Source of the DNA: Allacma fusca
Taxonomy: Eukaryota; Arthropoda; Collembola; Symphypleona; Sminthuridae
DNA: 64,000 nucleotides
NCBI GenBank assembly: GCA_947179485.1
Contig: OX359245.1
Location: forward strand, 33,591,067 to 33,655,066
Direction: 5' to 3'
Shown: positions 4,585-63,088 of the stretch, piece by piece
How the letters are laid out: every line of letters starts with the position of its first letter
Position numbering within the stretch: the first letter of the stretch is position 1
The notes under the pieces: generated by a model
Database searches by the model: none
Told to the model about the DNA's origin: nothing
What the model saw: only the letters and a program-made list of their open reading frames with translations
Translations under genes and position numbers: made by a program

Positions 4585-4604
4585 TGATGAAGCAGGTGAC
4601 AGGT

Positions 4605-38006: not shown

Positions 38007-38509
38007 ACTTTTCACCAGTTTGCCCGTGAATAAGTCACCCGAATAGCTCTCAGATTAGGCTCCCCGGGTTAAAAGCGCAATAATTAAGCAATAAGTTTGA
38101 GATTTTGGCATTCATTTGCGATTGAATTTTAACATGAGGTTTGTCTAACGGTTGATTTTATTCCCGTCTCGAGAACAAAATTTTTTTTTAGGACTTGTAG
38201 ATTGCAACTACTGAAGTCAGGTGAACCAAGTGGCGAAAACTGCTGCTTTGGACCACCCCCGATTCTACTCTCCTGGCCCACGGAGGTTCCGAGGATTGAG
38301 TCATTGTTCGCAGAGGATTTGCCTGCCTTCCTGGATTTTTGCAGAGGACCTTTACCTGCTTTCACGTTTTCCACAGAAGATTTTCCTGTGTGTGTTGTTT
38401 TGACAGAGTGATTTTCCTGTCCAAGTGTTTAAGTGCTTTATTATTTTGGTCATATCAAGACTTTCTGATGTTTTACTGGAAAAAGGTACGTCAATAATTA
38501 TGATTTTTT

Positions 38510-40012
38510 ATGTCTGGCTCAAAACAGCCTCCAAAGAAACCCCTTGCATCTCAGTCATCAATTTCACCTCCGCCTCAAGGGCGTTCAACTCGTTCAAATT
38601 CTAACCCTGACATTTTAGATAAAGACCAATTAGCTAAGGTTTTAAAGGCTGCTCGTAAGCGCCAACCTGTAACTACAGTTTCAAGTAGCACAGCTCAGAC
38701 TCCTCCAACTACTACAACTGTTCCATTAATTCCACCCCTTAAAGCCAAAACTACTAAACCTACCCCTAGTGCTAGTTTTACTCAAAGTGCTTCGCAGAAA
38801 AATGCAAAACGTGCTTCTCGTAAATTTAAGATCCCACCTCCGGTAATAAATTTATGTGATTTATTTCAAGAACCTAGTGGTTATTTTTCAACAGTGTATT
38901 ATCATACGAATAAGATGGCGACGACAGTTCCGCCTACGATTGTGATTCAAACCTCTCCAGCGAATTCTTTTCTTAATTTTAAGAAGACAAATCAGTTTGA
39001 TCCAGCCAATCATGATGTTTTTGATTTTATTATGGATTTGGAGAGGACCATCGGTTTACTTAAATGGGATTGGGCGGAATTACAAAATAATCTTCCCAAT
39101 TTATTATTGCCTGACCCATATCTTTGGTTACAAGGTGAAATTCGACGCACAGGTTCCACTGTCGTTGATATTCCCACTATGTATACAGCTCTTCGTGAGA
39201 GATACGGTAAAAGCCGTCAGGTTTATTTGCACCAACTTAAGTCCAAAATACAAGTTGAAAAAGAGTCATGTGCAAAATTTTTGTATGCTATGGATACACT
39301 TTGCTCCCGATATGATGCGAACATGCCCGTCGCTGATAGAGTGGCTTGGGGCATTTCGGGACTACTCCCAAAATACGCCCAAGCTACTAGCGGCTTGAGC
39401 TTTACTAGTATCGCAGCCCTTGTTAGATTTTGCGAACATCGTGAATTTCAACAAGAAGCTACTCCCATTCCCGATACTACTGCTAAATTATTAGCTTTAG
39501 AAGAACAAATCAAAAAGTTAACTACATCTGATGCCCCACACGCTCACGTTAACGCATTAAATGGTAACCCACCTGCTCAACGTAATAATAATCGTCGCGG
39601 ACGAGGCGGTGGCAGAAATAATAATAATGGTGCTCCTCGTAATAATAATAATCAAAATAATGGTAATAATAATAATCCCAACCCTGCTCGTGGGCTCCAA
39701 TGCTATAATTGCAACAAATTTGGTCATTTTGCTCGCGACTGCCGGTCGGGAAATGGGCAGAGGGGACCCAACAATCAGCACCAGGGTCCCCAAAACAATC
39801 AAAATCGACAACAATTCCAGAACCGCAACAATGGCCAACGGAATTACCAAAACAACAATTTCCGCCGCAACAACAATTACAATCCCAACAATCGCCAAAA
39901 TGTTCAAAGAGTGGAACTTGCTTTTGCGCCTCCTCAACAGGCTGCAGTTCCCCAGCAAGTTCAAGCAAATCCCACTCTACAGTCATACCCACAGATTACT
40001 TACCCTCTGTAA
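38510..40012 (+). CDS. gag: Ty3/Gypsy Gag of the second element, intact
   Basis: A 500-residue ORF with the same layout as Gag of the first element: a basic, Ser/Pro/Thr-rich N-terminus, a capsid-like centre (YTALRERYGKSRQVYLHQL) and an Asn/Gln/Arg-rich tail with one CCHC knuckle, CYNCNKFGHFARDC. The -1 frame is open from within the last ~300 nt of gag into pol, without the pol ATG seen in the first element, so Pol would need a -1 frameshift. No disabling change is visible, so Gag may still be made although Pol cannot. Confidence 0.9.
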   Translation: MSGSKQPPKKPLASQSSISPPPQGRSTRSNSNPDILDKDQLAKVLKAARKRQPVTTVSSSTAQTPPTTTTVPLIPPLKAKTTKPTPSASFTQSASQKNAKRASRKFKIPPPVINLCDLFQEPSGYFSTVYYHTNKMATTVPPTIVIQTSPANSFLNFKKTNQFDPANHDVFDFIMDLERTIGLLKWDWAELQNNLPNLLLPDPYLWLQGEIRRTGSTVVDIPTMYTALRERYGKSRQVYLHQLKSKIQVEKESCAKFLYAMDTLCSRYDANMPVADRVAWGISGLLPKYAQATSGLSFTSIAALVRFCEHREFQQEATPIPDTTAKLLALEEQIKKLTTSDAPHAHVNALNGNPPAQRNNNRRGRGGGRNNNNGAPRNNNNQNNGNNNNPNPARGLQCYNCNKFGHFARDCRSGNGQRGPNNQHQGPQNNQNRQQFQNRNNGQRNYQNNNFRRNNNYNPNNRQNVQRVELAFAPPQQAAVPQQVQANPTLQSYPQITYPL

Positions 40013-42900
40013 ATGTTTTAAGTGCTACACATTGCCCCTACATCATGTGCTATTTTACCTCAGTGACAATTGATGCTTTAGTTGATACTGGTGCTACACA
40101 TACATTGATTTTACGCAGTGCAGTGCCAGCTGAGAGTAAAATTTTGCCAGGTCCTCCCTGTCATATTATGACCGCTGACAAAACCAAACTTAAAACTTCC
40201 AGTGTAGTAATTTTGTGTTTTAAGTTAGATAATATTAATTACACAACTACAGCTCATGTGTTAGATACTCTCACCCCCTCATTCATTTTAGGGTGTGCTT
40301 TCCTCAAACAATACACATTGGTTGTAGATGTTAGTCGTAGTATTATGTATAATTCACAAGTGACCCATTATCTTCGTAGTCATGCATACAATGAAGTGTG
40401 CTCAGTAGAATGTGGATGTTCATTACCAGTGAAGTCCTTGTTTACTATTAACCTTCCCCCTCGACGTCAAATGTACATTCCAACCACGGATATGAATTCC
40501 ACTCATACATGTGCATTCATTCCCAGCCCTACAGTACAAAAACAACTTCAAGTTATTTTTCCTCCTGTCATCAACCATAGTAAAAATGTTTAATTGGCTT
40601 CCAATGTGTCTCGCTCTCCTCAACTTATTGTTGCAGGCACAATTTTAGGTTACTCACAACGGTATGAGTTTGTTCAAGCCCTCTCTTCTGTCCCAGTTAT
40701 TCCCTCCGAAATTAAACCATTGACTACTGAACAACTTTCAGTTATCAATATTAATTCTCAGCTTACCCCAGACCAGCGTCATGCTATTATTCAACTTTTA
40801 AATCGGTATTCTTATCTTTTTGCATGGAGCATTAATGACTTACAGGCTTGCATTCTCCCTCATATGCGTATACAGTTGAACTCGGATATTCCAGTTCAGT
40901 CCAAACCGTATAGATTAAGCCCCCTTTAACGTGAAATATTAAAAAGTGAACTTGACAAACTCATACAGGCTAATATTATAGTCCCGTGTGAGTCTTCCAA
41001 TTATTCAACCCCAGTGTTTTTAGTTCGACAAAAATTAAATAAATGGAGATTAGTGTGTGATTTTACCAAATTGAACAAAATCACTAAAGATGAGTTATTT
41101 CCTCTCCCCCGCATTGATGATTTACTTTTCCAGCTCCGACATGCAAAATATTTTTCCCCCTTGGATTTATTTAGCGGCTATTATCAGGCTCTGATTCATC
41201 CTGATGATAGGCATTTATGCGCTATTATTACAGAATTTGGTATATATATGTATCTCCGCGTTTGTTTCGGTCTCAAAAATGCTCCGGCTTATTTCCAAAA
41301 GTTAGCTATAGCAACTTTGGGACGCTTACGCTATACACATGCTGTATCATATATAGATGATATAATTCCATACAGTCGTGATTTTCCTTCTCATTTAGTC
41401 GCCCTTGAATTAGTTTTTCAAGCTTTATCCCGAGTTAATTTTCGACTCAGTCCATGGAAATGTAATTTTGCTATGCAAGAACATATTATTTTCGGATTTT
41501 ATTTGACCCAACAAGGATTAACAACGGAACCGGCTAAAGTGGCTGCTATAATGCGCCAGCCGAAGCCCAATAATTTAGATACTCTTAGAAAATTTTTGGG
41601 CACTATAGGTTATTACCGAAGATTTATTTTAGGCTTTGCTCAGATTGCAGCTCCATTGCAGAGCTTACTCAAAAAACATTCTTTGTACCATTGGTCCAAG
41701 GATTGTGATGAGTCTTTTGAAAATCTCAAACAGGCAGTGTGTAAAGCCCCTGTGTTGAGACATTATGATGAGAATCGTCCATGTTTATTGTACACGGATG
41801 CGAGCAACCTTGCAATTGCAGGGATTCTCCACCAACAGTTTGAGGATGGCGAGCATCCCGTTTATTATGTCTCTCGTGCACTCACTCCTACGGAGAAAAA
41901 TTGGAGTGTCACTGAGAAAGAGTGTCTTGCTGTTGTATTTTCCACGAAAAAGTTACGTGAATTTTTATTTTTAAAGCCTTTTACAATTGTTACTGACCAT
42001 CATGCATTATGCTTTTTAAAGTGTCAGCGTGACCCTACTGCTAGACTTACAAAAATGTCTATAATATTACAGGAATATAGGTATGTGATACGTTATAAAA
42101 AAGGCTCTCTCCACAGGAATGTGGATGGCGTCTCCCGTTGTCCATATGCCCTGTCTAGTGATAAACAATCTGAGGAGGATTTGATTTTACCCGGTTTTAA
42201 TTCCTCTCTCATTACTCCTTTTGATCCGTTAATTAATCCTGACGACTTGAAACATGCTCAAGCAATTGATCCTGTTTTGCAGCGATTATTAACAAAAAAG
42301 CGCTCAAAAGTTACTTCCAACAGTGATGGTGTATATTTCATTCAGTTTAATTCTAGGCAACCCAATTTACTTTTAGTACCTAAGGCCTTGATTCCCACAT
42401 TATTACATAATGCCCATAATCATCCCTTAGCAGGTCATCTTAGTTTTCGTAGATGTTTGGCAAGGATTCGTCCCTATTATTGGTGGCGATCCATGACCGC
42501 GGACACTTTTAAGCATTGCTCACAATGCCCCGAGTGCCAAAGTCGCCAACATCAGACTCGTCTACGGATGGACAGTCTTAAAATAATTCCCATAAAAATC
42601 CCCGCTAGTACTTACGCGATGGATTTATTAGGCCCCTTTAAAGAAACTCCTAGAGGTAATAAATATGTGTTAGTTTTAACTGACTTGTTTACTAAATGGG
42701 TTCATGTTTCATTGCTTCCTGTCAAAGATGCTGCGAATGTTTCCATGCATCTCGAACAATTTATTTTAACTTTTCCAGGCATGTCCACATTAATTTCTGA
42801 TGGTGCCGCTGAATTTAAGTCGGCAGTTGTGCAAAAGTTAACACAACAGTTTAACATTACTCATAATTTTAAGTGGCTTCCAGTTGTGAAGCAAACTTGA
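39709..42900 (+). pseudogene. pol: Damaged Ty3/Gypsy pol of the second element
   Basis: Read in the -1 frame relative to gag. Protease (DTGAT), RT (YIDD), RNase H (TDAS) and the start of integrase (HHCC finger, first two catalytic Asp) are recognisable and closely similar to the first element. Two nonsense codons interrupt it: TAA at 40591-40593 (after KNV, where the first element has Leu) and TAA at 40927-40929. After NITH near residue 25 beyond the second integrase Asp the similarity stops; nine codons later the frame ends. The integrase Glu, the rest of pol and ORF3 are missing through one internal deletion. It cannot encode a working Pol. Confidence 0.92.
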
Positions 42901-44766: not shown

Positions 44767-46770
44767 ATGGCTGATTCTTTGAGTGAAAGGTCTAAGCGTA
44801 GAAAGTCAGCTAAATTAGTTTCAGATGTGCTAAGTAGTATTAGTCAAGGTGTAATTAATAATAGTACAGACGTTTTGAATCAGTCAACTTCCCGTCGTAA
44901 TGATAGTATGGTTAATCTCATTGCACCAGCATACCATCACGAAAATGAATTTAGAATTTTGGAAGTTGAGAATGAGCCTTTGCGTATTTATTTAACTAGC
45001 TCGTCGAGTTCTCAATATGAATCTGAACCTGAGGACGTGTCATTAGATGCTGAGCTATCTAAATGGTGCTGTGATCATCAGGTGACTCATTCAGCGGTCG
45101 ATTCTTTGTTAAAAATATTGAACAAACATGTTAGTGTATCTTTGCCTCTGTGTACGAGAACTCTGCTTTCTACCCCTCGCACAATACAGACAGAAAAAAT
45201 GGGCGAAGCCGATTTTTTTAACTTTGGAATAGAATCAAATGTTAGGTTAAGGATATGTTCTGGTATATCCTTAAAATATTTTCCGTTTCTTCCTAATAAT
45301 GCCGGTAGTATGTATCTGACAATGAGTGTCGGTTGTGATGGACTTCCCATCACCAAAAGTAGTAATGATCAGCTTTGGCCATTAATGGGAGTTCTGCATG
45401 AGTCGAAATGTCAAGACCCTTTTGTTATAGCACTTTTTAGTGGCAAGTCTAAACCAACTAATATCTATCTCTACTTGCAGAAGTTTATTTCGGAAGCTAC
45501 TCAATTATATTGTTCAGGGCTACAAGTAAATTCAGTCGTTTATAGATTTAGGATTAGCTTTTTTACAGCAGATGCTCCTGCTCGCAGCTTTCTAAAATGC
45601 GTTAAACCTCACAATGCGTATTTTTCTTGTGAGAAATGTGTACAAGAAGGTGATTATTATGACCATAGAGTAACGCTACCAGAAACTAATTGTAGGTTGC
45701 GATCGGATCAAAGCTTTATAATGCAATCTCAGGAAGAGCACCATGTATGTACTACACCGTTAACAGCATTACCTATCGGCATGGTTAGTCAATTTGTTCT
45801 GGATTATATGCACTTACAATTAGTGTGCTTAGGGGTAATGAGAAAATTAATTAATGCTTGGATGAAAGGAAGCTTGCAAGTACGATTACGTGCAAGGGAC
45901 ATCATAAAAATTTCTGACCGATTGTTGGCATTGAGAAAACATGTACCTTGTGAATTTGCTAGGAAACCCCGACAGCTACGGGAGGTAGACCGATTCAAAG
46001 CTACAGAATTCAGGTCTTTTTTGCTATATTATGGGTTAGTTGTCTTGCATGAAATTTTGCCTGACAATTTGTACCAGCACTTTCTGTTACTTAACTCTGC
46101 AATTTTTATGCTGGTTTCTCCTGCCGCTCATACGGATGCAGTTAATTCTGTAGCGAAGAACATGCTAAGAAAGTTTGTAGAACAGATGATGTCATATTAC
46201 GGTCAAGAATACATAACCTACAATGTTCATGCATTAATTCACCTAGCAGATGATGCTAAGAACGTTTGGAATTTAGATGGATTCAGTTGTTTCGGATACG
46301 AAAACTACATTCAAAAATTTAAAAATATGATTAAGTCAAAGAAACATTATTTACAGCAAGTTGTAAACCGGATATCGGAACAAAATACCTATGGTAAAGT
46401 GCATCAAATACCAAAATCTGGGTTTGTTAGAAACTCGAATAAAACCAAATATTTTATAAATGGTACACTCATTTGAACCAGTGATTCCGGTTCATGCTTT
46501 CTAACAACTTCATTCCAGGTTATTCAAATAATATCTCTAGATAAAATCGAGGAGGGAATAATTTGTTGTAAAAAATTTGAGAATGTAAGCGCAATACCCG
46601 ATTACCCAATAGACAGTAGAAAATTATGTGTGTATTTATGTACTGGCATTTCCCAAGTTGTAAATATCCCTGTTAAGAACTTAAGAAAAAAATGTGCATT
46701 GCTTCCTTCGTTTACTTTGGCTAATACTTATGTTTGTATTCCACTTACATCTGAAATTGTACACAACTAA
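44767..46770 (+). pseudogene. CACTA/EnSpm-related transposase with one premature stop
   Basis: A 667-residue frame interrupted only by TGA at 46474-46476; the same frame continues for 98 codons to TAA at 46768-46770. The order fits the animal transposase family related to Tnp2: N-terminal basic/Ser-rich region; SVGCDGLPITKSSNDQLWPL (first acidic block); FFTADAPARSF with PHNAYFSCEKC (second block and a Cys pair); and LDYMHLQLVCLGVMRKL (third block, typical of the family). The part after the stop (VIQIISLDKIEEGIICCKKF to VCIPLT) is the usual C-terminal region of these proteins, so the TGA is a mutation rather than the true end. The gene begins 25 bp after the DUF4806 gene. Confidence 0.75.
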
Positions 46771-47257: not shown

Positions 47258-50200
47258 TTACTTTGGGCGTGTTCCGAAGCGACCAGTTGCAATTGAGTAG
47301 TACAACAGGTCGCCCGAGCTCGCCTGTTTGAGGAGACTTAAGTCTAGGGTACATGCCTTAAGATAGATATTTCTAATCATGCAGAAGGCAGGGCATGTCG
47401 CTAGGAAGTGAAAGGCATCCTCATCCTCCATGCCACAATATGTGCACAGGGGGCAGGATGCCTTCCCAATTCTGTGGAGATGTTTTTGAAATCTGCCATG
47501 ACCAGAGATTACCTCCGTGAGCCACTTGATGTGGACTCGTGAGAACTTGGTCACCGATTTATTCCCAAATAGTGGAATGTTTATTAGTGATCTGGGGTGA
47601 GCACCAATTTTCAGGTTCTGCCATCTCTCAGTGTGCAAGGCACGCAGTTTGCTGCGTACAGTGTGTTTCACTACTGAGGTAGCAATTGGGAGTTTAATTG
47701 TGTCCTTGGTTGCTAAGGATTCTTTAGAGTAAGCTGCCTTAGCAAGTTTGTCTGCCTCCTCATTACCTTCAAAACCTTGATGACTTGGAATCCAATGGAG
47801 CTGAACAGTGTTATCTTTGGATAGACTGCTCAGCGCCATGTGACAATCAAGTACTAGTTTTGAAGAGGTGTAGGAGCTGTTTAGTGCAAGTAGGGAGCTC
47901 TGACTGTCACTGTAAAAAGTGATAGTTTCATTGCTATAGTTAGAATTCTTGAGCCAATTTGCTGCACACATGATTGCATGTATTTCACATTGAAATACTG
48001 TTGCATGTTTCTCAAGAGGGGTGGATTCGCGGAATATATCTTGCCGCGAGTTCCCTTCTCTCTTGTAGATATGAAAGCCACTGCCTGAAAACTGATCAGA
48101 TTTGGATCCATCAGTGTAACAGATGAGGCCCTTTTTGTCCAATGACAAGTCTTTGGTCCAATTGGACTTGTCTCCAATAACAATTTCCATATTGTTATTC
48201 TCGATTTGTAATGGGATGATACTATCGCTAGGTCTCAGCAGGATAGTTTCCATCGCCACCCATTCACTCCACAGTCTTGTGTGACTGCGTTTCACATGTG
48301 CCATAGATTTGCCGAGCCAGTGGTTCCTGGCCTGCAGTCTGTGCATTGTGCGTATAGCTATTCCCTGTAGATGCAAGTCTAGCGGAATAATACCTAGAAT
48401 TGCTTCTAAAGTGGCGGTTGGAGTGCTTCTGCAAGCACCCGTGATACTGAGACACGCTTGCCTCTGCACACCATTTAACTTAGCAAAGGTGTATTTTGCG
48501 CTGTACCCCGGATGCCAAACGATAACTGCGTATTCTAGAATGGGGCGCACAATTGTCGTGTACATCCAGTTAGCAATTTTTGGGTTGATGCCCCATTTCT
48601 TTCCAACCAAGCGTTTGATAGTAAGTAATGATGAACTGGCTTTGTTCGCAATGGAGAGACAGTGTACTCTCCAAGTGAGGTGGCTATCTAACATTACTCC
48701 TAAATATCTTATGCTTGGGTGGATGGTAATTTGATTGCCACGGTAGGAAAGCGTACTTATCCTCATTCGTGTGTTTCTGGTAAAGATGACTGCCCCCGTT
48801 TTTTCCGGGTTTAGTTTGAGACCCGTGCGTGTGCACCATCCATCGATGATGCCTAGACCCTTAAGAGTTCTATCCGCACATGTGCCGAAGTCTTTTCCTG
48901 CCTGGGCAAGGACCGCATCATCTGCAAATCCTTGCGATAAGACAGACGGCATCCTGGTTTGGAGCTGTTGCAGAAGCTCATCCATAACGAGATTCCAGAT
49001 TAGAGGAGACAAGACTCCACCTTGCGGGGTTCCCCTCTCAACCCTTCTCTCGCTGTGAGAGCTTCTCAGTGAGGAACAAACTAATCTGGATTGCAGCATA
49101 TGATTTATCCAACGACGAATCACAGGGTCAATACCAGTTCTGTTCAGAGCTGATTCCATCGCAGCAAAGAATAAGTTATTAAATGCTCCGTCGATATCCG
49201 CAAATATCGCAATGACAATTTCCTTATTTTCCAGGGCTTTTTCCACATAGCATACAAGTCGATGAAGTGCTGCCTCAGTGGAGGTCCCCCTTAAATAAGC
49301 AAATTGTTTGTTTCCACGAAGATTTGCTTGTAGTTGATGTGTCCTAATGTGACAGTCAACTAGTCTTTCGAGTGTTTTCAAAAGAAAAGAGGAAAGTGAG
49401 ATTGGTCTCCAAGCGGCCGAACTTTCGTAGCAGCCTTTTCCAGGTTTCGGGATGAATATCACTCTGGCCTTACGCCATTCTAGTGGCACGTAACCTAGTG
49501 TCAGACAACCTTTGTAGATTGTGCAAAGGTATGTGCTGAGTACATCCAAGCCCTTTAGTAAAACTATCGGGGAGATGTTGTCGGGGCCAGCAGCTTTGTA
49601 TGGACCAAAGGTACTTACTGCCCATTTTACTTTGGATGGATTCACTATTTTGTCTAGCTCCATCACCTCCATTTTATTGTGATCCCAAGTTATGTTGTTA
49701 TACAAGGGACTACATGGAAAGTGGTGAGCTAGTAATTCATCTAGTACTTGGCAATCATCCCTTGTGTGAGTACCATTCGGGAGTTTTATGCGAGTAGGAG
49801 TTCTTCTATTCTCCGAACTCAGTATTTTTTTAAGTCTAGCCGCCACTGGTAAGCTGGTTACGCTCTCACAGTAGGTTTGCCATGACTTACGCTTCTCGTT
49901 TCTGAGAACTTTTTTGTATTTGTTTCTGCATCTCTTATAGTTCTCCCAGGCCGTTGGATCACGCTCATCTGGGTTGCCAACAGTTCGGAGTAGACCACGG
50001 GATCTTTTGCGGAGAGCAGTCAGTTCATTGGTCCACCAAGGAACAGTTTTTTGCCTCCACGAAATTGTTTTCAGTGGACAGGCTTTGTCGAAGCTTTTTT
50101 GAATAGATGATGTTATCAGCAAAGCCTGACTCTCCAGTTTTTCAACATTGAGAGGTGCTTCCATGTGTACACCCTTTAAATCTTCGCATAAGAAATTAAT

Positions 50201-51037
50201 GTATTCCAACCAATCAGCCTTTCTAATGTTACGAGCTTTTATTGGATTTGGCTTCATGGCAGACACCAAAAATCCAATGTACAAGTGGTCAGACATGGAC
50301 TCGATGTCCAGAACATCCCACTGTCTTATTAGATTGAGTGCCCAACTGTTTGTGATTGTGACATCTAGGACCTCCTGTCTATTAGCAACTACAAATGTGG
50401 GTTTGTTTCCCACATTGCAGGTCTGCAGGTGGTTCCCTAGTAGAAATTCAAGTAGCTGTTCGCCTCTTGAGTTTATATTGGAGCTACCCCAAGCTGTGTG
50501 GTGAGCATTCGCATCTGCACCCATGACCAGCGGGATGTTTAGCTCGTTGCAGTATTCAACAAGGTTTGCGATGGATCTGCTGGGAGTTGATTGTGTGTCA
50601 CCAGGGCAGTATGCTGATGCAAACACAATTGTCTCATTTCTCCATTCAGTGGAGATAGCCACCAAGTCTCTATCATTAAATTGTGAGAGAGGAGTGGCAA
50701 TTATGTTTCTGGTTGTTACAATGCAAGTTCTAGGAGCTTCGTTTATTGTACCAACAAATATATTATCTCTTTTGCCGAGGCCAGAGATTTTGTTTTTGAC
50801 CAGATATGGTTCTTGGATGAGGAAGACGAGAGAATGAGCATGGCGCGCTTTACTGTTATTGCGCAAATGCATTGCATTCTTTTGTTGCATCACCAGACTG
50901 TCGCGCCAATTCATAAGTGAAGTTGACGCATCACGACAGTGATGCAAGTTAATTTGGGTCGTGTAAACATGGGGAGTATCTATAATAGGTACTCCCATGT
51001 TACGTGACCCAGGGAAAAGCCTAAAGGATGCAGACAT
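47258..51037 (-). CDS. LINE ORF2: AP-type endonuclease, reverse transcriptase, RNase H
   Basis: 1259 residues. The N-terminal endonuclease carries IQEPYL, MGADANAHHTAWGSS and SMSDHLYI blocks of the exonuclease-endonuclease-phosphatase fold. Reverse transcriptase follows with WRKARVIFIPKPGKG, WRPISLSSFLLKTLERL, FADIDGAFNNLFF, the RGTPQGGVLSPLIWNLVMD block and the catalytic FADD at 704-707. RNase H carries YTDGSKS with D976, then ECEIHA-like QCEIHAIM and SDSQSS blocks. A CX2C-X-H-X-C-type finger (CPLCTYCGMEDEDAFHFLATC) lies near the C-terminus. The protein nicks the target and reverse-transcribes the element RNA. No stops or frameshifts. Confidence 0.95.
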   Translation of the reverse strand: MSASFRLFPGSRNMGVPIIDTPHVYTTQINLHHCRDASTSLMNWRDSLVMQQKNAMHLRNNSKARHAHSLVFLIQEPYLVKNKISGLGKRDNIFVGTINEAPRTCIVTTRNIIATPLSQFNDRDLVAISTEWRNETIVFASAYCPGDTQSTPSRSIANLVEYCNELNIPLVMGADANAHHTAWGSSNINSRGEQLLEFLLGNHLQTCNVGNKPTFVVANRQEVLDVTITNSWALNLIRQWDVLDIESMSDHLYIGFLVSAMKPNPIKARNIRKADWLEYINFLCEDLKGVHMEAPLNVEKLESQALLITSSIQKSFDKACPLKTISWRQKTVPWWTNELTALRKRSRGLLRTVGNPDERDPTAWENYKRCRNKYKKVLRNEKRKSWQTYCESVTSLPVAARLKKILSSENRRTPTRIKLPNGTHTRDDCQVLDELLAHHFPCSPLYNNITWDHNKMEVMELDKIVNPSKVKWAVSTFGPYKAAGPDNISPIVLLKGLDVLSTYLCTIYKGCLTLGYVPLEWRKARVIFIPKPGKGCYESSAAWRPISLSSFLLKTLERLVDCHIRTHQLQANLRGNKQFAYLRGTSTEAALHRLVCYVEKALENKEIVIAIFADIDGAFNNLFFAAMESALNRTGIDPVIRRWINHMLQSRLVCSSLRSSHSERRVERGTPQGGVLSPLIWNLVMDELLQQLQTRMPSVLSQGFADDAVLAQAGKDFGTCADRTLKGLGIIDGWCTRTGLKLNPEKTGAVIFTRNTRMRISTLSYRGNQITIHPSIRYLGVMLDSHLTWRVHCLSIANKASSSLLTIKRLVGKKWGINPKIANWMYTTIVRPILEYAVIVWHPGYSAKYTFAKLNGVQRQACLSITGACRSTPTATLEAILGIIPLDLHLQGIAIRTMHRLQARNHWLGKSMAHVKRSHTRLWSEWVAMETILLRPSDSIIPLQIENNNMEIVIGDKSNWTKDLSLDKKGLICYTDGSKSDQFSGSGFHIYKREGNSRQDIFRESTPLEKHATVFQCEIHAIMCAANWLKNSNYSNETITFYSDSQSSLLALNSSYTSSKLVLDCHMALSSLSKDNTVQLHWIPSHQGFEGNEEADKLAKAAYSKESLATKDTIKLPIATSVVKHTVRSKLRALHTERWQNLKIGAHPRSLINIPLFGNKSVTKFSRVHIKWLTEVISGHGRFQKHLHRIGKASCPLCTYCGMEDEDAFHFLATCPAFCMIRNIYLKACTLDLSLLKQASSGDLLYYSIATGRFGTRPK

Positions 51038-51075: not shown

Positions 51076-52725
51076 CTACACAGGATCAGGTTTGGCGCGC
51101 TCAGATTTCTTCAGCCTTGCCTCAAAGCGTAGTGTACCCACGCTGTAGAAGAGCGTGAAATCTTTTGCGCGCAAATACTCCACTGAAGCAGGATCAACTC
51201 CTATGATCCTACTGCATCCAAGCAGTGGTGCTCCAGGAAGAGATTTGGCCGACCAAAACTCACTCCATCTGTGTGTGAGAAGTCCTGGATTCTGTGTCCT
51301 GAGTCTTTTGAGGAACTCAGGAAACGATTGCACAGGACCGTTTACACGCACATAGAAGGTAGCTTGGTTTTCCGATTTCCCCGGTGGGGCTTCGGTTGGT
51401 TTCCAGGCCGCGAAGGTGTGAGTCCCAATTTTACTCACCCACTTCACGTCTGGGCACCTGCTCGTAACCCACTCGTACGTGTGAGAGTTGAAACAATCAA
51501 CTCTAATTCGGCCTGACGAGGTCAGTGTGGGCTCCTTCATTTGAAGGATTTGCCCCTGACTGACCCCATCATCGTACAATTTGTACAATTCTAGTGTGAA
51601 GTGTTGGCACGCCTTTACACTGATCTTCCTCCCAACATCATCACCAGCTAGGGTAATGATGGCGGAGTGTTCCAGGAGAGGCGCTTCCTCTACTTCATTA
51701 GTGGTGGTGGCTATATCTTTAGGAGGTGCACTAGTGCCAGCTCCTAAAGAATTAGCAGAGGGAGGGGTTGGCAGGTCTGTCCGACCTTTCTTCCTCCCCT
51801 TTTTGCCCGACTCCCCAGCACTGGAGCCCGAGCTGTTAGGGCAGGGCCTCTTGCCTTCCTTAGTGGTGGGAGTGGATGGTTGGGGGGGAGCGTTCTTCTT
51901 TTTTTCGATACTGAGATCTTTCAAGTATCTCCTACGCTCTTTACTCGGCATTTTCCGAACGGCGGCGCTCGTGAGTCGGGTAAAGCTAGTGCTGGAAGTG
52001 GCTACTTCCTTGCCAATAGCTTCCGTTGCCGGCTCATGAGTGTCCGCTAAAAGAGAAGCAGCAGCTTCCTCTGGGATGACCACTTCCATCTCCTCCGATG
52101 TTAGAGGAGAGAGTGGGTTAATGAGGTCCGTATCTACAATAAATGGACAAGTGATGTATAAAGTTGATTTATAGGACCACCAAGACATATAGTGAGCAGC
52201 TGCGCCCCTTAAAGCCCACCTATGCCCCAGTCTGAACTGTGGGTGACTAGTGTGATGATCACATTTGGTTGCCCAGCTATGATCTTGCACACGTATGTCC
52301 GGGTAGTGCACATATAGTGTGCACACTCGAAGGATGCATATAAAAAGTACATTTGAGGTGTATACATTGTGTGTATATATAGAGGGAAAGTTTGAGGCAT
52401 TACAGAGCCAGAAATTATTTCCAGCCTGTGCCTTTGGAGTTGTGTAGGTTGAGGCACCTGTGGAGTAGATGAGAGTCAACACACGCTCAACGTTTCGGGA
52501 AGACCCTAACAGATGTCGCCCTAGTGTTGAACATGCGATGACTCCCATATAATCCACATAATGCCACCCAGCCACTACACGCCTCATGGATATAATCTTT
52601 TTTATATCAAAATATAGTATGGGGTTATGTGTCAAGTGACTTGCACTCACCTGGGCCTCTGGCACCTTCGTTCCCATTGGTTTCCATAGTCCAGGTGGGA
52701 TGCAAGTCCTATTGACACAATCCAA
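51076..52725 (-). CDS. LINE ORF1 (Gag-like RNA-binding protein)
   Basis: The frame is open over 549 codons, but the first ~200 look like translated 5' leader. A likely start is the ATG at 52089 (MEVVIPEEAAASLLADTHEP), giving 337 residues. The centre is Lys/Pro/Ser-rich (KERRRYLKDLSIEKKKN, then a basic stretch). The C-terminal half (W...CPDVKWVS, LTHRWSEFWSAKSLPGAPLL, GCSRIIGVDPASVEYL) resembles the DUF4780-type nucleic-acid-binding domain of arthropod LINE ORF1 proteins. It ends 38 bp before the ORF2 start codon. It probably coats the element RNA. No zinc knuckle is seen. Confidence 0.8.
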   Translation of the reverse strand: MDCVNRTCIPPGLWKPMGTKVPEAQVSASHLTHNPILYFDIKKIISMRRVVAGWHYVDYMGVIACSTLGRHLLGSSRNVERVLTLIYSTGASTYTTPKAQAGNNFWLCNASNFPSIYTHNVYTSNVLFICILRVCTLYVHYPDIRVQDHSWATKCDHHTSHPQFRLGHRWALRGAAAHYMSWWSYKSTLYITCPFIVDTDLINPLSPLTSEEMEVVIPEEAAASLLADTHEPATEAIGKEVATSSTSFTRLTSAAVRKMPSKERRRYLKDLSIEKKKNAPPQPSTPTTKEGKRPCPNSSGSSAGESGKKGRKKGRTDLPTPPSANSLGAGTSAPPKDIATTTNEVEEAPLLEHSAIITLAGDDVGRKISVKACQHFTLELYKLYDDGVSQGQILQMKEPTLTSSGRIRVDCFNSHTYEWVTSRCPDVKWVSKIGTHTFAAWKPTEAPPGKSENQATFYVRVNGPVQSFPEFLKRLRTQNPGLLTHRWSEFWSAKSLPGAPLLGCSRIIGVDPASVEYLRAKDFTLFYSVGTLRFEARLKKSERAKPDPV

Positions 52726-53008
52726 TACTTGTGTGTAACACAGAAAAATTCTACTCTTGGTTGGAGGAGAAAAGCAGCACGTCCTTACACTTCAGTGGCG
52801 CGAACGCGAATCGGGCAACGATGTTAGTCACTAATCTTAAGTTATGGCAAGTACGATTAAGCATTGTGGTAAACAGAAGGCAATTTTTCCAAACACTTGC
52901 AATAAAATGGGGTACAATGTAAAATTATTTCATCGAACTCCAGATTACTGGAAATAATATTAATATTTATTATGATTTAGTTATTCAAAACAGAAATTTA
53001 AGTTTTAC

Positions 53009-53470: not shown

Positions 53471-56400
53471 TGAGCCTTTCAATCAATTTGCAACTATTTT
53501 GATTTGAATTCAATTCACAAAACAGAGCATTCCCGGACTCCAAATTTTGATCCGAATTCCATGTATTGTACAATTTATTGTAAATTTTAAAAAAATATTC
53601 GAATATTACAGCTGTTTATTGATGATTTTGATGTTGGAGGGACAGATAATTTGCGCGAATATTTCAAGTGATCATTTAAAATTTCCTGATAGGATACGTT
53701 TCTGTGATATGAAAGTAGCTACGGAGGGTAGCTTACTATAGTGAGATTGCTATAGGCGAGATGGCCATATAGATATTTATACATATAGGGAAATACCTCG
53801 TTTTTTAAACTTATTCAGGGATAGGGATCTAGGATTACGATAAGGTGCATCGTAATTGACGACGGTGCATCGGACATGTCTGTAGTAACGTAGTAGGGCA
53901 CAAATATATGGGTAAAACTTATTGCTAGTGATGAAAATTTTTAAAAGGTAATAATTTTTACATTTTCCATAAATAACGCAATTCCAAGTTTTTCCTTACT
54001 TCATACACAGATAACGTACGTTTGTGGCGAAGTTTGTTTTATTTGTTACCCGGATGCAAAACCAATTTAGAGATTTAAACCTACCTGATTAAGGAAAAGT
54101 TGTTCTTACAATTAGAAGGTACTTGGACCATGATGGCGTTTACGATACTTTTCAATTACCAGTTACAATAAATTGGTCAAAGTAATAATAAAATAAATTG
54201 GTCTAAATGAGGTAATTTATTTAATGATGTATCTGAACATTCTGAACAACTGTGTAGGAAACAAAATAAATATATTATATATAATTATGGACTTTCTAGT
54301 GCGAAATTCATTACGATGCTGGAATTGTTGAAACTGACTCATACGAGCTGGTTTTACTATAGCTCATAGGATTTAATAAACAAAAGAATTTATTACTTTC
54401 CATAACTTTTTAAAAAACTCGAAACTACCCCCTCCCACCCACAGATCTGACTGCTGCAGCCGAAATTTGTATCCAAGTGAATGATGTTATTAGACGTTTA
54501 TGAAAAACCAAATATACAATATTTTGACGACAGTAATTTCCAAAAATTATTCCTTAATAAATTCCACGCATTTTTTCCAGAAACGGAATTTCCGGACGGA
54601 ATCTTGTTCGAGAGTTGTTGAGAATGCTTTAAAACAATAATAGAATTTAAAATTAGAAAAATCCGACTTAGCTTTTTGTTAAGCTGATTGAAAGTTCAAA
54701 CATGATGCGATTTGAGCTGTCTAAATACCACGCCCTTAGATTAGAGCTTCTAATGGGGACAAAATTCTTGTCCCGTCCCTGTCCCGATATTTTTTAAAAA
54801 CCTTTGTCCCCGTCCCGTCTCCAAAAATTATAAAAAAACGTCCCCGTCCCGTCCCTAAAAATTTTAAAAAAAAACGAGCCCCTCCCGTCCCAAAAAATTG
54901 AAAAATGTTGTCTTCGTCCCGTCCCTATAATTTAAAAAAACGTCCCCGGTGCTGAAAATCGGAGCATGTGAACAAAATTCCTGTCCCGTCCCGGTAATTA
55001 CTAAAAACAGTTCACAACCACAAGATCTAGCTTATTTATGGGTAATTCGAAGGATTTTTGGGTACCAAATCCGGTATGGGTAAGATATTGACCTCGGGGG
55101 TCACAGTTGGGTCATTGTGTGAAAAACTGGAACCAAACTTGACAGGCAACTCATCTGGGCTTAAACCAAAAGTTCTAGCCTATTTGCGGGCAATTCGAAT
55201 GATTTTTGGTACCCAATCCGGTATGGGTAAGATATTAACCTCGGGGGTTACAGCTGGGTCATCGTGGCACAAACTGGAACCAAACTCGGCACACGTTTAA
55301 TATGTGTCTAATTAAAGCCCTTATTCCAATCTGGGCCAGTTTTGTCACCGTTTAGATTATGAAACCGGTATCAACGCTCTTTGACCTCTTGAGGTCAGTA
55401 TTTTGGAATGTTGAGGTCATATCTCGCTGAAATTTTTTTTGCACGTTATTTAATTTTTATTCTTGCCATTTTTGAAGTAATATTGCTAATTTTCAGTTTG
55501 AATTTTTTGGTACCCCATGAGCCCCCCCTCATTTTTTGCTAACTTTGACCCGGGATATCTCCAAATCCCGTCCTCAGATTTTTTCGGGGCAATTATCAAA
55601 AATGATCTACGCATCAAGGCGCACCCTGCAGTAATTGTTTCGCTAAATTCGAACAGAGGGCATTTTCTCGTAAGGATTGTGCGGTGTCCTTCCCAAAGAA
55701 CATATGGAGAATTATTTAATGAAAAATTCGTTGCAAAATAAAACTGCGATGTTTTATGTGTCTCGAATTTAACAGCCTCAATTATCTATTTTTCCCTGAT
55801 TGCAAAATTGCAAACTATAACACTTCTTTCCACCGAACTGACTAGCATAGAAGTTTAAAGATTTAGCCTTATTTTCAAATTCAACCCACGTTTCAAACAC
55901 ATTCGAATTTTGATAAGTGGTAACTGCAGGAAGATCTTTGCAAGCATTGGTGTGTAATAAAATTTCAACCAGCACCGATTAATCTGATTCTCTTCGGGAC
56001 AAACAAGGCAATTTTCTGGAGTAAAAATGTGCTGGACACGGGCTACCATATTTGAATTTATGTTTCAGGATTGAAGTAAAAGATCCTATAGTGATCGTTA
56101 CATTATTTATTAATATTACTGCCATAATGCGTACCTGCTTTAAAGAGACGACTTAGCATTCTCAAACTGTGTGCTAAAAGAGAAAATATCCACTTAATAT
56201 TAATTATTACTGATAGTGCATTAATGTTGGCAATTTTTTCACTTCAATGTATTGCTCCGTGATATTTCCATACTTTCCTTTGGCTTAAATTCAGGTGTTA
56301 TCTAGTACTATGTTGAATGGGTTCTAACAGTCTATACATTATACAGTAGCTCAGAGGACGTATTTCTTTCCGAATGAATACAACCACAGGAGCAATAACT

Positions 56401-56842: not shown

Positions 56843-59800
56843 ATGAAACTCAGTAGCTTAATTTTTGCCTGCTGGGCTATAATTATTGCGCACGGAACAT
56901 CTGGAGATCTGATTCCGGGAAAGATTCAGGCTCCTCGTGTCAAACGAGAGAGCATCCGTCATGTTCGAAGTCCCACTGCTTTGGACCAGTCAAAGACAGA
57001 ATACCCAGGAATGGACGGAGATGAGTCAGGTAGTTAGTTCAGAATCTCAGAAATAATATTAGATTAGTGCTCCCAACTTTAGTTTTCAAGACTGAATTTA
57101 TAACCGGTGCGTAAAAGTATTCTGAAATTTTTCAGTTACTTTAATCTTAATTAATGATTACGCTCATGCGTATCTATGTCTTGCCATAATAATAATCCTT
57201 TCAAGAAGATTTTCCACAGATTTCGACCAGTTCTTCTAAGGAATCAATACATGTATTAATTTAACTTTAATAATTCCACCTACTTTGTATTTTACAGATG
57301 TAATGAAGAAATTCTATGAAGATGGTAAGCACTGGACCAGTACAGCACTTTAGACTATAACGCTGACTTTCTTTCCTAATACCTCAACTTGATCCTGTTA
57401 TGTCATTAATTGAAGTATGAAATTCCATGAATTGAAATTAAATCAAAGCTTCACAATCAATTTAATGTCAATGGAAAAAAATGTGACCATTTCCAAAATT
57501 TTTTTTAAATACATTAAAGTTCAAAAATGTTTTTTTTTAATCCACATCTCGGTATAGTCACCTCAAGTTTGTAATCAGTACAGTAATAATATTTTTGTTA
57601 TACGTGGGAGTTAGCCGAAGGACACAAGTGAATTATATTTCTATCAGATCTAGGAATCAACGTCTATAATAATTTAATTTCAATGTCACTTATATTTTAT
57701 TTTTGCAGTTTTTGGTGCGTTTGAAGAATTGAAAATAGGTAAGTTATGGAAGGAGATGTTTTAAAACACTAAACCCTCTTGAAATTCCGATTGGTTCATT
57801 ATAAATTTGCTTTCACTGAACTTGCCTGAAAAATATGTAGAAAATTTTTAATAATTTAGCGCTCAAAAACCTATTTTGCTAGTAATTCACTTTAGTATAT
57901 CGAAAAATCCCTTTTCTCAAAATTTTTTTTTACTTGGATTCAAATCTTCTGTATTTATGTACATATTTGTCTTCTCATGGGAAGAATCCTCCTATACATG
58001 AAAACCGAGCCCTGGAAACCATTATATTTTATCCAACCCTTCTTGAAAATTTTTGAGTAAAATTTAAAAATCTTTTTCCGCTGTTGCGTTGATATGGTTG
58101 GGATTCAGGCCGTAACCCCCAGGGAATACATAATTACAAGTAATTATAACTAGTAGCAATAAATGTGTCATTTGTATGCATTTTATTTTTTTCACAGTTG
58201 AAGGGTCGGAGGACGAAACGAGTAAGTAACAAAATTGGATTAAGACACTAAACCTAAGCGAAAACCCTTTTCCGAATTTTACTCAAAACCCCATGTAGTC
58301 TGAGGTCGAAGGGATTGTGAGAATTCCCATTAATTACTCAATTAGTTACTGTTAAATTAATCTTCCTCCGACTTTATCCTCCAGTTAAGTTCCTGAAACA
58401 GGAGGTTGTATTTCCTCTTCTTTCGTAATATTTTATGTCCTTGTAAATTTAGAATTCTTAAGAGTGTCATATATCTACTTTAAATTCCAACTCCTTTAAA
58501 AGGTTCGGAAATAAAATTTTGGTCTCGCCAAATGAGCCTAATCCCAAACAATGAGCACTCAGACCCAATTCTATAAATGTGCAGTAATTTGTTATTTAAA
58601 ACAAAAAATGGTGTGATTGATATTTACAATAGGATATTTCTTTTATGTATCAATTAACATTAATTTTTACATGTAATCACTTAGACGTATTTTAGAAATT
58701 CGGTGAGCTTCATAAAATCTTACATTTGAAGATTTACGTATTGCCAGTTAAATTTCTCAACTAATACATCCTTCAGAACATAATTTGTAACTTATGTTTT
58801 TATTCCTCCTGTGCCACTTAAAATGGAAAAAGTAGCTGTTCCAGATTGTGTCTATTGATATTTCCCCCCATCATCATGTCCCAGAGGTATAAATGAATGT
58901 AAGTCTAGGAAAAACAAGGATTCAAATACTTTACCAACGCCACTTGTTTCTAACCTACACAACAGTCAGCTCACAAAAATTCCCTAACCTTGACATAATT
59001 AATGGGTGGAGATGTTTGGTGGTAAAGTATTCAAATAATTTATTCGTTATTTTTATTTTGCAGGTGCGTCGAGAGTTGCCATATGTAAGTTAATGTAAAT
59101 TATGGTTGGCGTGTACCTTTTTGCTTGTAAACTTTGCTGTATAACTTATCTAGTATTTACTTTTATAAGCTAATTTACTACTATAAGCTCAAAATCCTGC
59201 CGTTCGTGGTTCCCAGATATTTTTTTATTATGCCTGGAAAAGTTTTTATACTACTGACGAATTTTTCCTGACTCAAATTGAAAATCTAGCCTCTCGAATA
59301 TATTTTCTCTGGACTTGAGCCGATGGTCCTAATAATGAATTTTGTTATAAAAATTAAAATATTTAGTATGTCAATAATGTATTAAAGTTTGAGTGCCTTT
59401 ATTTCATTTTTACAACAGCGAGACCCGCCATTTTGGAATGGTACAGAGGTAAGCAATTCAGCTTCGTTTATAGACCTTGACTGTTTTATTAAAATTATTA
59501 GAAATTGTTTTACCATCTCAGATATTGAGATTTAAAAAACACGTGCGTTTTTCGAAATTATTTTAGGGATTTTTTCGTCCGCTATTAAAAAAAATGCTTT
59601 ATTCCGTAGTTTTTACTAAAATTACAATGAATGATTTAAAAAGAACGAAACTTATATTTGAAATACAGATGAAAGGGGTTACTTAAATTTGCAATTGATA
59701 ATTTTTATCACACTTACTTTATTTTTTACAGGAACGCCGGTCTCACGTGAAGATACTGCTAAAGGTAAGCATTTTAACAGCACTAATAAGACTTAACTCA

Positions 59801-60831
59801 AAAAACACATCCCTGACTAACCTACTGGTCATATTTGTTCTTTTATTTATTTGTGTCGTTCAAACCTCTGACGTTATTTTAATGCTTGCTTTAATTTTTT
59901 TCGTGTGATTGCTGTAACAATTTGTTGGTATTAATTATACTTATTACTGCTATTTTTAAAGTGAATAATTATCTAAAGCCGTCAATCCTCAAGTCATTTT
60001 TTTCAGAGATTAATTTGTTCAGGACACAGGACATGAGCTCAAAATTATATTTTAGTGCATTTCTAAAAACATTTTATTCACAACATCTTTCTTTATATAA
60101 ATCTGCTAAATGTCAAATTAATCCGTAGATTTCTCGCCTGCTCAGATTTTACATCAAGGAATAGGAGGAGGAATTAATTATTTAAATGTTTTCGTGATTT
60201 TTCTTTTCTCAAATGTATCATCCAAACTGTTTGAATGGACGTGTATTCCTGGTCGTGGCTGATGTTGACTGTATGATTTTACAGCATTAAAAGAGATTGC
60301 AGCCAAACCCAGTTCGAGTAAAGGTACTAGCCAATTTATTTATTCATATATTTTTACACGGCTTCCACTCTTTTGAACACTCCTTCAATAGAAGGAATTC
60401 AGATTTCTTTCTTAGGCCTACAATGATTTCGTGCTTCTTCCTTAAAAATGTAATACTAATATATTTTATTGCGTTTCTTTCTGACCATTCAACTTCTGTT
60501 GGTATTAATTTTAAAAATTTGCCAAATAACTGAATTTATATAAAAAGGATTTTAAGTTGAGTGCATCTTTTATAAATTTGTAATTTTAATAAGTCAAAGC
60601 ATTTAATTCGTTTCTGGTTAAAGGATGCAGTTAATTTAGTAAACCAAAATCCAGAACTTGTGCGTCTGGTTAATTTCAAATTTTTTACACATCTAATTTC
60701 AAGTTATTAGCCGGAGACGTCAACAAACGAAATCACTAACAGAGGGACGACAGGCTTCCCGAGCATCCTCTGGCACTGCACGTCAGCCAATCAAACGATC
60801 AACAGCTCCTCGGAATCTCCCTGGCACATAG
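56843..60831 (+). CDS. Secreted protein encoded by a micro-exon gene (nine exons)
   Basis: Exons: 56843-57029, 57298-57324 (27 nt), 57709-57738 (30), 58198-58221 (24), 59064-59084 (21), 59419-59448 (30), 59732-59764 (33), 60286-60324 (39) and 60704-60831. All eight introns are phase 1, so each internal exon is a cassette of whole codons. Splice sites are strong, mostly TTTTNCAG and GTAAGT/GTAAGC. The product has 172 aa. Exon 1 encodes a signal peptide (MKLSSLIFACWAIIIAHGTS) and a furin-like site RVKR; the micro-exons read DVMKKFYED, VFGAFEELKI, VEGSEDET, SASRVAI, SRPAILEWYR, GTPVSREDTAK and ALKEIAAKPSSSK; the last exon is Arg/Ser/Thr-rich and ends at TAG 60829. A competing acceptor at 60711 gives a nine-residue ending instead. 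I recognise no family. The function is unknown; a secreted, processed, alternatively spliced peptide is inferred. Confidence 0.8.
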
Positions 60832-62080
60832 GACAGGTACTTCAACAAAAATAGACGAAATTAAATTCTTCGCCTTGCTCTATGTACCTCAAGATTCTTT
60901 TTTGCAAATTATTGCCTCTAATTATGCCTGTAATTACTATGCAGAAGAGTTCATTCAAATCCTAGTCTCAAAGATCTACAATAAGCATTACACACAAAAA
61001 TTGTATTCAACAGCAATGTCGAACGTACCACTTATTTATTAAAATTTATTTTTGAGATTAGTTTCAGAAAAATTGTTGTAAATGTAATTATGTTGAAGTC
61101 AAAAAATTATATTTTTCCAAATTTTAATTGAAAATAAAATTGGAGTTTTTGTCGCTAAATTATGCAGTGTTAGCTTATCAGTGCAGTGTTAATAAATTTT
61201 TTATGCATGCCAGTTACTCGTGGAACTCAACAGGGCAGTCGTATGCTAAACATAACTAATTAAGAATAATTATAAATATTTGTTTAACTTGAATGCTACT
61301 CATTTTGTCTTTCCGGTTTCTTTTGTTCTCCATAGTTTTCAGTATGGAATTATTTCTTTTTTATTAGCATTAACGGGATTAAACATAGTGAAGCTCCAAG
61401 AAATTATAATTATTCATGCTATGTTTGTACATTATTGTATCATTTAATTTAAAACTTTAATTCCTGAATTTTATTCAATAGCCCGTTTTTAAAAATAGTA
61501 GTAGCTACAAGGAGTCCTTTATAATTATTTAGCGCTAAAAGTATTTCCCCTTTTTTCACAGCATTTTTGTAACTGCAATCATCCAAGTCAATTCAAAATC
61601 CGGAAGTTTCTTTGCCAGATTACGGAATAATATTACATTTTTTATGCATATGTGAGATTTGTTGGACAAGATGATTAGGTCAATCCTGTTTCTAACGTAT
61701 TAAATATAATTATGAAAGAATTAGGATTTATAAAGGCACTATAAATAAATTAAGAATGTGCTACAAATTTGGCATGCATTTAGTCAATAAAGATATGATT
61801 TAACATGCCATAACATCCCAGGATCAAATTCTAATAATGCAAAAATAGTACTTTCCCTTTCTACAACATTGCGTAAGCTAATTGTCCTATTTCAAAATTT
61901 GTGGAACCAATTGTTTTTATAACAACACAGCAGCTATTATTTCATGTGACCGTATATTCGTATATGTCTGTCGTATCTAACCGTTTTGCAGTTACAGATC
62001 TTAGTTTTTATTTTAATTCGTAGAATTTGTGTACAAAATTTTCTAAAGAATAAATCAATCAATCTTTGCATCTCTCAGAA
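60832..62080. other. Intergenic between the convergent micro-exon gene and gene E
   Basis: AATAAA at 61133-61138 could end the micro-exon gene transcript. Nothing else is recognisable. Confidence 0.4.
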
Positions 62081-63088
62081 TCAGTCAAACGTTTCAAGAT
62101 ATTTTCGACCCGTTGGTCCCCCATAAATTTCAGGAAGCTGGTCTTGCGGAATATGTTTAAGCAATTGTCCTTTCCATGTCCCTGGATTTCCATAAATTTC
62201 TATAGATGTGACTGCAGGTCCGAGGTAATGCTTCCCCAAATCCCACACTCTTCTAAATAAGAAGTTAGCTAAAAAAAATATTTATTTTTTAACTCCGTTC
62301 ATAGAATTGCTCGCATCAGCATACAGTTCTAGCATAATGCAAAATTTTGATTTAAATCCCAGTATAAAAAGACCAAAGGCAAATTACCATTAATGATAAA
62401 GGACATCTTCAAATCTCCAGGCTGAAGTACAGAATCAAATTTTTTGAAGTGCTTAACCAAATACATCATGGCTGGAAAAATATATGTTAAATAAAATAAA
62501 AATAAATATGCATATATGCCTCAACGTTTTAAAAATGAATTTTAAAAACTTGCACATAAAAATGCATTTTTGTAATAATTTTAAAACTCACTCTCAGGAT
62601 GACTGACTTGTGACATTGAAAAGCCATCCATGTCCATAATGCTTACGAATCCACTGTGAGTGTTCTCCTCGTGATCGCAACTAATTCTACCACTCTCTCG
62701 AAACCGAAGGAGGATTTGACTCCCATGCTTATCCATTGCCTCAAATGACTCCCCACCTTTCTCCACATATTTCCGAAGGTTCCAGCGACCGAGCTGGAAG
62801 ATCCAAACTGGGGCTCCACCAAAATCATATCCAGCGAGATAGTAGGGAAAGTCCTTCTTAACTTCAGCTGGGACCTCATAATCCAAAATATTTTGTTCCT
62901 AATAAATAATAAATTGTACAATGTTTCCACAATTTCTAAAATAAGCTTGCAAAGTAACTAAGTAATTGACTTTTCTAAATTAAAGGAATTAAAGGAAAAT
63001 TAAATCTTACCTCCACAGTAAAGTTGAAACAAAAAGATTCGCAAATGTTTAAAAAGAGAAGCAACGTTGAAAATAATAAGGGCTTCAT
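62081..63088 (-). CDS. Secreted mini CRAL-TRIO (Sec14-like) protein, gene E
   Basis: Four exons on the minus strand: 63011-63088, 62592-62898, 62388-62471 and 62081-62268, giving 218 aa. All introns are 112-120 bp, GT-AG, with the phases of genes B and C. Exon 1 encodes a signal peptide (MKPLLFSTLLLFLNICESFC) followed by an NFT sequon. Exon 2 begins EQNILDYEVPAEVKKDFPYY, with GAPVWIFQLGRWNLRKYVE and GFVSIMDMDG. Exon 3 ends DLKMSFIING. Exon 4 ends HIPQDQLPEIYGGPTGRKY. Like its paralogues it consists of little more than the CRAL-TRIO fold. It is convergent with the micro-exon gene. A TATA-like element lies 54-61 bp upstream of the ATG. Confidence 0.9.

Follow-up and report, generated by a model that had tools for sequence, protein, structure and literature searches.

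The genomic stretch analysed here (hereafter, the window) comprises 64,000 nucleotides of contig OX359245.1 in assembly GCA_947179485.1 (forward-strand positions 33,591,067 to 33,655,066), and all coordinates below are counted from its first letter. Within the window, the interval 56843..60831 holds a putative gene for a secreted protein in which a signal-peptide exon is followed by seven micro-exons and a last exon, with SEC14-like frames and retroelements in its surroundings (Table 1).

Table 1. Features of the window, with the micro-exon gene first and its surroundings below; splice-site scores are given in bits.
Feature	Position	Strand	Details
Exon 1	56843..57029	+	187 nt; ATG start; ends in phase 1; donor 7.1
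Micro-exon 2	57298..57324	+	27 nt, phase 1-1; acceptor 8.8, donor 9.0; open in phase 1 only
Micro-exon 3	57709..57738	+	30 nt, phase 1-1; acceptor 8.6, donor 10.5; open in phase 1 only
Micro-exon 4	58198..58221	+	24 nt, phase 1-1; acceptor 9.8, donor 7.6; charge -4, strongly acidic
Micro-exon 5	59064..59084	+	21 nt, phase 1-1; acceptor 10.2, donor 6.5; weaker donor 59094 (4.0)
Micro-exon 6	59419..59448	+	30 nt, phase 1-1; acceptor 6.8, donor 10.9
Micro-exon 7	59732..59764	+	33 nt, phase 1-1; acceptor 11.4, donor 10.9; weaker donor 59746 (3.7)
Micro-exon 8	60285..60323	+	39 nt, phase 1-1, less certain; acceptor 6.0, donor 4.3
Last exon (initial annotation)	60704..60831	+	basic; 41 whole codons and stop; start uncertain (60704, 60711 or 60743)
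Two AATAAA motifs	61133..61196 (starts 61133, 61191)	+	302 and 360 nt past 60831
Competing weaker splice sites	donors 59094, 59746; acceptors 57241, 58204, 59669	+	3.3-4.5
SEC14-like frames (CRAL_TRIO)	10886-11203 (+), 11464-11757 (+), 15123-15449 (-), 26005-26313 (-), 62081-62281 (-), 62581-62898 (-)		Pfam
Ty3/gypsy-like element	793-6221	-	reverse transcriptase, RNase H, integrase and zinc-knuckle domains
Second Ty3/gypsy-like element	38504-42900	+	zinc-knuckle gag frame 38504-40012, then frames resembling, by eye, the pol of the first element
Long interspersed nuclear element (LINE)	47258-51037	-	endonuclease, reverse transcriptase, RNase H
DUF4780 frame	51076-52791	-	adjoins the LINE; may be its first open reading frame

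The micro-exons form a real layout in uniform phase 1. The lengths and the phase proposed for them in the initial annotation were confirmed for all seven, each with AG and GT at its borders and a length that is a multiple of three—six of them with strong splice sites, and the 39-nt exon with weaker ones. Every micro-exon (exons 2-8) opens with the last two bases of a split codon and closes with the first base of another, and none of the seven junction codons leading into them is a stop. Over the seven together, phase 1 contains no stop codon, against five and six in the other two frames. The signal-peptide exon that the same annotation had placed upstream was likewise recovered, with its ATG, a hydrophobic N-terminus (by eye and by hydropathy) and an end in phase 1. 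Downstream of the last exon, three ATTAAA motifs occur besides the two AATAAA motifs; the latter are frequent by chance in AT-rich DNA.

Splice sites were scored with generic, approximate matrices that were not trained on the host species. On this scale, the acceptors of exons 2-7 (six of the seven micro-exons) reach 6.8-11.4 bits and their donors 6.5-10.9 bits, which is comparable to the exons of the neighbouring SEC14-like genes. Seven SEC14-like frames were scored for this comparison: the four that could be aligned have frame-start acceptors of 11.3, 8.7, 8.5 and 0.9 and best donors of 4.2, 2.0, 9.2 and 6.5, and the best acceptors of the other three score 5.1, 1.7 and 6.7. Six comparable exons, all open in phase 1 and a multiple of three in length, lie within a single 2.5-kb interval (57298-59764)—versus a maximum of two in any 2.5-kb interval of 200 second-order Markov strands, where such exons occurred at a mean of 0.77 per 64 kb and the best 2.5-kb count was zero in 100 strands, one in 89 and two in 11. 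The summed-score threshold behind these counts (16.5) was chosen after the real scores had been seen, the weakest of the six real exons scoring 16.7. A looser control based on chain scores was less decisive: the best real chain reached 64.6 versus a maximum of 54.5 among 60 first-order simulations, with simulated chains of up to 14 weak exons and a real chain that took in two doubtful exons (57083-57106 and 61619-61651).

Elsewhere in the window, the best exon chains hold at most three exons, and the candidates scoring at least 15 besides the six exons number 10 on the forward and seven on the reverse strand. A second micro-exon gene was considered for the window and rejected, with phase-1-open candidates of suitable length following one another at most twice (8330-8365 and 8996-9019, forward strand). 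An additional micro-exon at 57083-57106 (score 13.7, open in phase 1) may exist but is at chance level, 0.41 being expected per 4 kb over 60 simulations. Separately, exon 1 is preceded, at a distance of 669 bases, by a strong 39-nt micro-exon candidate on the reverse strand (56135-56173, score 18.9, open in phase 1); this candidate has no convincing partners, the best phase-1 chain on that strand comprising three exons.

Base composition sets most of the exons apart from the introns: the GC fraction is 0.25-0.32 in the introns and reaches 0.48 in exon 1, 0.41-0.54 in five micro-exons out of seven and 0.52 in the last exon (from 60704). Codon usage offers the micro-exons weak support, with log-odds of -0.34 to -0.44 in phase 1 and of -0.42 to -0.53 in the other frames.

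The 3' part of the gene admits alternative ends. Other GT sites would close exon 8 at 60317 (donor 2.9) or 60311 (unscored), both of which again give a multiple of three. For the last exon, a start at 60704 (AAG, score 1.9) leads to the stop at 60829-60831 and to the product of 172 amino acids proposed initially; a start at 60711 (TAG, score 3.8), read in phase 1, leads to a stop at 60737-60739 and 139 amino acids; and a start at 60743 (CAG, score 2.1) leads to 159 amino acids, with the stop at 60829-60831 and the ending of the 172-residue model. The basic last exon and the 172-residue product of the initial annotation both stand if 60704 is used, but this acceptor is the lowest-scoring of the three and the others yield the two shorter proteins. 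Across these exon 8 and exon 9 ends, the predicted length is 135-172 residues with exon 8 and 126-159 without it. GC content stays raised over a long tract to about 60836, and the evidence on its reading frame is mixed. The initially annotated frame has a GC fraction of 0.33 at third codon positions, low as in the other coding frames of the window, and of 0.70 at second positions, unusually high against 0.35-0.46 in those frames. Two of three codon tables favour it over both other frames (log-odds of -0.24 and -0.23); the third table, that of the host, favours the frame of the 60711 model (-0.43 versus -0.51). A phase-0 exon spanning 60711-60836 (donor 6.5) was rejected: all three GT sites found for exon 8 keep phase 1, and with GC fractions of 0.36/0.60/0.69 by codon position and log-odds of -0.46 to -0.74 this is the least coding-like of the three frames.

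The predicted protein opens with a hydrophobic N-terminus (grand average of hydropathy of 1.25 over residues 1-21), in which a signal peptide of approximately residues 1-21 can be recognized by eye. The RVKR motif that had been reported downstream of the signal peptide was found at residues 32-35, where it closes a short pro-stretch ahead of a hydrophilic exon 1 tail and would be suited to furin-type processing. No cysteine is present outside the signal peptide. By eye, exons 2 and 3 together possibly resemble a single amphipathic helix. Pfam returned no family for the exon 1 frame or for the exon pieces joined with X at the junctions, and the PDB gave one weak match to the joined pieces (E 0.25), which was taken as chance. 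A tblastn comparison of the exon pieces, covering all but the initially annotated last exon, found no convincing copy in the window, and a scan of viral contigs with exon 1 confirmed no relative. No homologue was found, no search having been made in databases of animal sequences.

The genes flanking this locus give an indication of its host lineage. The Pfam family CRAL_TRIO was matched by six of ten frames scanned (one exceeding the cut-off, one equalling it and four falling short of it), and four of the SEC14-like frames align as paralogues, with 44-48% identity to the first. The SEC14-like gene at 62 kb lies on the opposite strand, points towards the micro-exon gene and is separated from position 60831 by about 1.25 kb. 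As stated in the available text of PMC5490193, Folsomia candida has 154 genes for Sec14-like proteins, which form one of its five largest expanded families; this species and Orchesella cincta have far more of them than any other hexapod. The cluster in the window fits this springtail expansion. A literature search on expanded SEC14-like and CRAL-TRIO proteins in insect genomes retrieved this one paper alone. The GC content of the window is 36.8%; that of the F. candida genome is given as 37.5%, slightly above O. cincta (PMC5490193). Two further observations concern the cluster: a reverse-strand frame at 24406-24636 appears SEC14-like by eye and has no Pfam match, and a 193-base unit in near-perfect (97%) tandem duplication (15392-15781) overlaps a SEC14-like exon at its start.

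We consider it probable that the locus is a genuine arthropod gene—most likely from a springtail—encoding a secreted protein, with micro-exons that are mostly constitutive. On the best reading, its architecture may have converged with, or may be very distantly related to, those of schistosome micro-exon genes (MEGs) and the bicycle genes of sap-sucking insects. The initial description as a micro-exon gene for a secreted protein is supported by the sequence, with secretion itself being probable. From the exon coordinates and phases, the splice consensus, the hydrophobic N-terminus, the RVKR motif and the flanking genes observed in the window, we infer the following course of expression. The transcript would begin at about 56.8 kb and end at about 61.2 kb. 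In the spliced mRNA, the signal-peptide exon would be followed by seven (at least six) phase-1 micro-exons and the last exon, which together would encode a small protein. The product would enter the secretory pathway and lose its signal peptide, after which a furin-type protease probably cuts behind RVKR—removing the pro-stretch and freeing a hydrophilic mature protein, the C-terminus of which would be basic if the initially annotated frame is right. The micro-exons would most likely be included constitutively for the most part, and their uniform phase and length would let occasional skipping, or the gain and loss of exons, spare the frame and thereby allow fast protein evolution.

Several observations weigh against this interpretation. 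Weaker competing splice sites (3.3-4.5 bits) lie in or near exons 2, 4, 5 and 7; the micro-exons score below zero for codon usage whichever frame is read, phase 1 being the least negative; the GC content of exons 2 and 3 is intron-like (0.26 and 0.30, respectively); and three weak acceptors compete for the last exon, with two different ends. The springtail attribution in particular draws on one gene family and on GC content, and two points count against it. CRAL-TRIO families have expanded in Lepidoptera as well (PMC5490193, in part). The LINE of the window is one that we would place near the R1/LOA/Jockey clades; R1/LOA/Jockey elements are very rare in the springtail Orchesella dallaii (13 copies; PMC12693562, in part), a point that bears on this one species.

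The likeness to schistosome MEGs put forward in the initial annotation holds for the layout, as an analogy. In the sections available from PMC10526429, MEGs are described as having a signal peptide, 10-20 exons, internal exons of 6-81 nt that are mostly multiples of three, and splice isoforms, with 35 genes giving at least 87 proteins. Shared with the gene described here are the signal peptide, micro-exons within that size range (multiples of three in seven of seven cases here) and introns of hundreds of bases, together with the basic C-terminus of one MEG clade (PMC10526429, same sections), which applies here under the initially annotated last exon. However, the hydrophobic-aromatic motif, with a basic residue at its end, that follows the MEG signal peptide is absent from the exon 1 peptide (by eye), there are nine exons rather than 10-20, the micro-exons measure 21-39 nt whereas most MEG exons are of 15 nt, and the flanking genes suggest, indirectly, an arthropod and not a trematode. 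MEGs are, moreover, not the sole precedent for such a layout: the bicycle genes discussed below, which the initial annotation does not mention, are an arthropod family that follows the same phase rule. Literature searches brought up, among the matches listed, nothing relevant on secreted genes with symmetric or phase-1 micro-exons, and no paper on a springtail micro-exon gene when springtails were paired with micro-exons.

A MEG-like combinatorial use of the locus, in which many different combinations of micro-exons would be left out to give numerous secreted variants from one gene, appears rather unlikely. The initial annotation had called the gene variably spliceable, with up to 128 variants; the number is correct (2 to the 7th) and any subset of the seven symmetric micro-exons does keep the frame, but this is arithmetic alone and not evidence of alternative splicing, and the strong sites of six micro-exons are no less consistent with constitutive inclusion. 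MEGs with micro-exons that are mostly multiples of three do give several proteins per gene (PMC10526429, in the part available), the donors of exon 8 are weak and multiple, and the competing donors and acceptors listed in Table 1 could serve variable splicing. These sites are, however, weaker than the main sites of exons 2-7, and bicycle genes share the symmetry; the words 'alternative' and 'isoform' do not occur in the available main text of the paper on their structure (PMC9168663). Skipping would also disrupt the amphipathic helix that exons 2 and 3 may form. The frame would be kept in every subset also if a uniform-phase architecture were maintained for other reasons, and the strong sites of six micro-exons together with the possible helix make us lean towards constitutive inclusion.

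The structural resemblance to bicycle genes is strong and concerns gene structure, not membership. In these genes, a signal sequence is combined with micro-exons that nearly all fall in one phase (called phase 2), with about 17 exons on average and a minimum of five (PMC9168663). The available text of the same source records them in aphids (Hormaphis cornu and others), phylloxerans and scale insects, with putative homologues in Daktulosphaira, Maconellicoccus, Phenacoccus and Ericerus. In the gene described here, a signal-peptide exon likewise precedes many micro-exons, and seven of seven internal exons start in the same phase. The bicycle classifier, which considers gene structure only and was trained on one aphid, was applied with its printed coefficients and a cut-off of 0.72 (PMC9168663). 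All 12 exon models—three last exons combined with an exon 8 ending at 60323, 60317 or 60311 or absent—scored above this value (0.847-0.968), at an error rate that is not established for springtails; with exon 8 ending at 60323, the scores were 0.882, 0.918 and 0.954 over the three last-exon models, the highest being that of the 60711 model.

Even so, we regard it as improbable that the locus belongs to the bicycle effector family, i.e., that it encodes a salivary protein in a sap-sucking insect. The classifier scores, the single phase of the internal exons and the hydrophobic N-terminus speak for membership, but the classifier derives from a single aphid, the gene has nine exons versus an average of about 17, the CYC motif is absent, with no cysteine past the signal peptide, and the SEC14-like cluster suggests a springtail, which would place the gene beyond the lineages known to carry bicycle genes. 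Moreover, bicycle candidates were not found in Psylloidea, Aleyrodoidea and Fulgoroidea, as reported in the available text of PMC9168663. The weight of the missing motif is limited, in that putative non-aphid homologues, scale insects included, were accepted without obvious CYC motifs (PMC9168663, same extract). One cysteine-free bicycle protein keeps saposin-like folds (preprint PMC13041983, in part), so that a lack of cysteines does not by itself exclude membership. A further scenario, which we consider doubtful, is that the gene represents either an independent springtail class of uniform-phase micro-exon secreted proteins (a third origin) or a far more ancient origin of the bicycle family within hexapods, with its product varied by exon skipping. 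A springtail secreted-protein gene with mostly constitutive micro-exons remains the reading that we prefer.

It is very improbable that the gene is decayed or mispredicted, with exon 1 and the micro-exons as leftovers or partly the result of chance and no protein being made. The weak sites at exon 8 and the last exon, the retroelements in the window, the intron-like GC content of exons 2 and 3 and the negative codon log-odds would be compatible with decay; the six strong exons nevertheless share one phase without a stop, and AG and GT are kept at the ends of all seven micro-exons. Least probable of all is a neuropeptide- or antimicrobial-like precursor from which RVKR and later basic sites would release one or more short bioactive peptides: the hydrophobic N-terminus and RVKR, as well as RRR and KR in the initially annotated last exon, would suit it, but the exon pieces show no repeated peptide copies (by eye), the usual Gly-Lys/Arg amidation signal was not seen past the signal peptide (by eye) save for a GK in exon 1, and Pfam gave no match.

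In two parasitic lifestyles, those of flukes and of sap-sucking insects, micro-exon genes of this layout are known to encode proteins secreted at the interface with the host. If our interpretation is true, the presence of such a gene in a free-living soil arthropod would mean that the architecture is not bound to parasitism, and the bicycle classifier would either be detecting convergence or be uncovering a much older family. Genes of this layout are readily overlooked by automatic annotation, and more of them may be hidden.

The remainder of the window is marked by mobile elements and repeats, with the SEC14-like genes lying between the retroelements. Rfam gave no match in the window and no tRNA was found. 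No relative was confirmed for two retroelement proteins and the SEC14-like alignment among viral contigs, or for one retroelement protein and the same alignment among prokaryotic contigs, in collections from which records of the genome that contains the window may be excluded. The long terminal repeats of the second Ty3/gypsy-like element may be marked by a two-unit 15-base tandem repeat, which occurs at 37472 and again at 43145. A forward-strand frame of 569 codons (44767-46476) matches DUF1258 and DUF4218 below threshold only, and resembles a gene derived from a transposase. Finally, a satellite-like array occupies positions 17700-18667, where a 39-base unit is repeated in approximately 25 copies with 98% matches.

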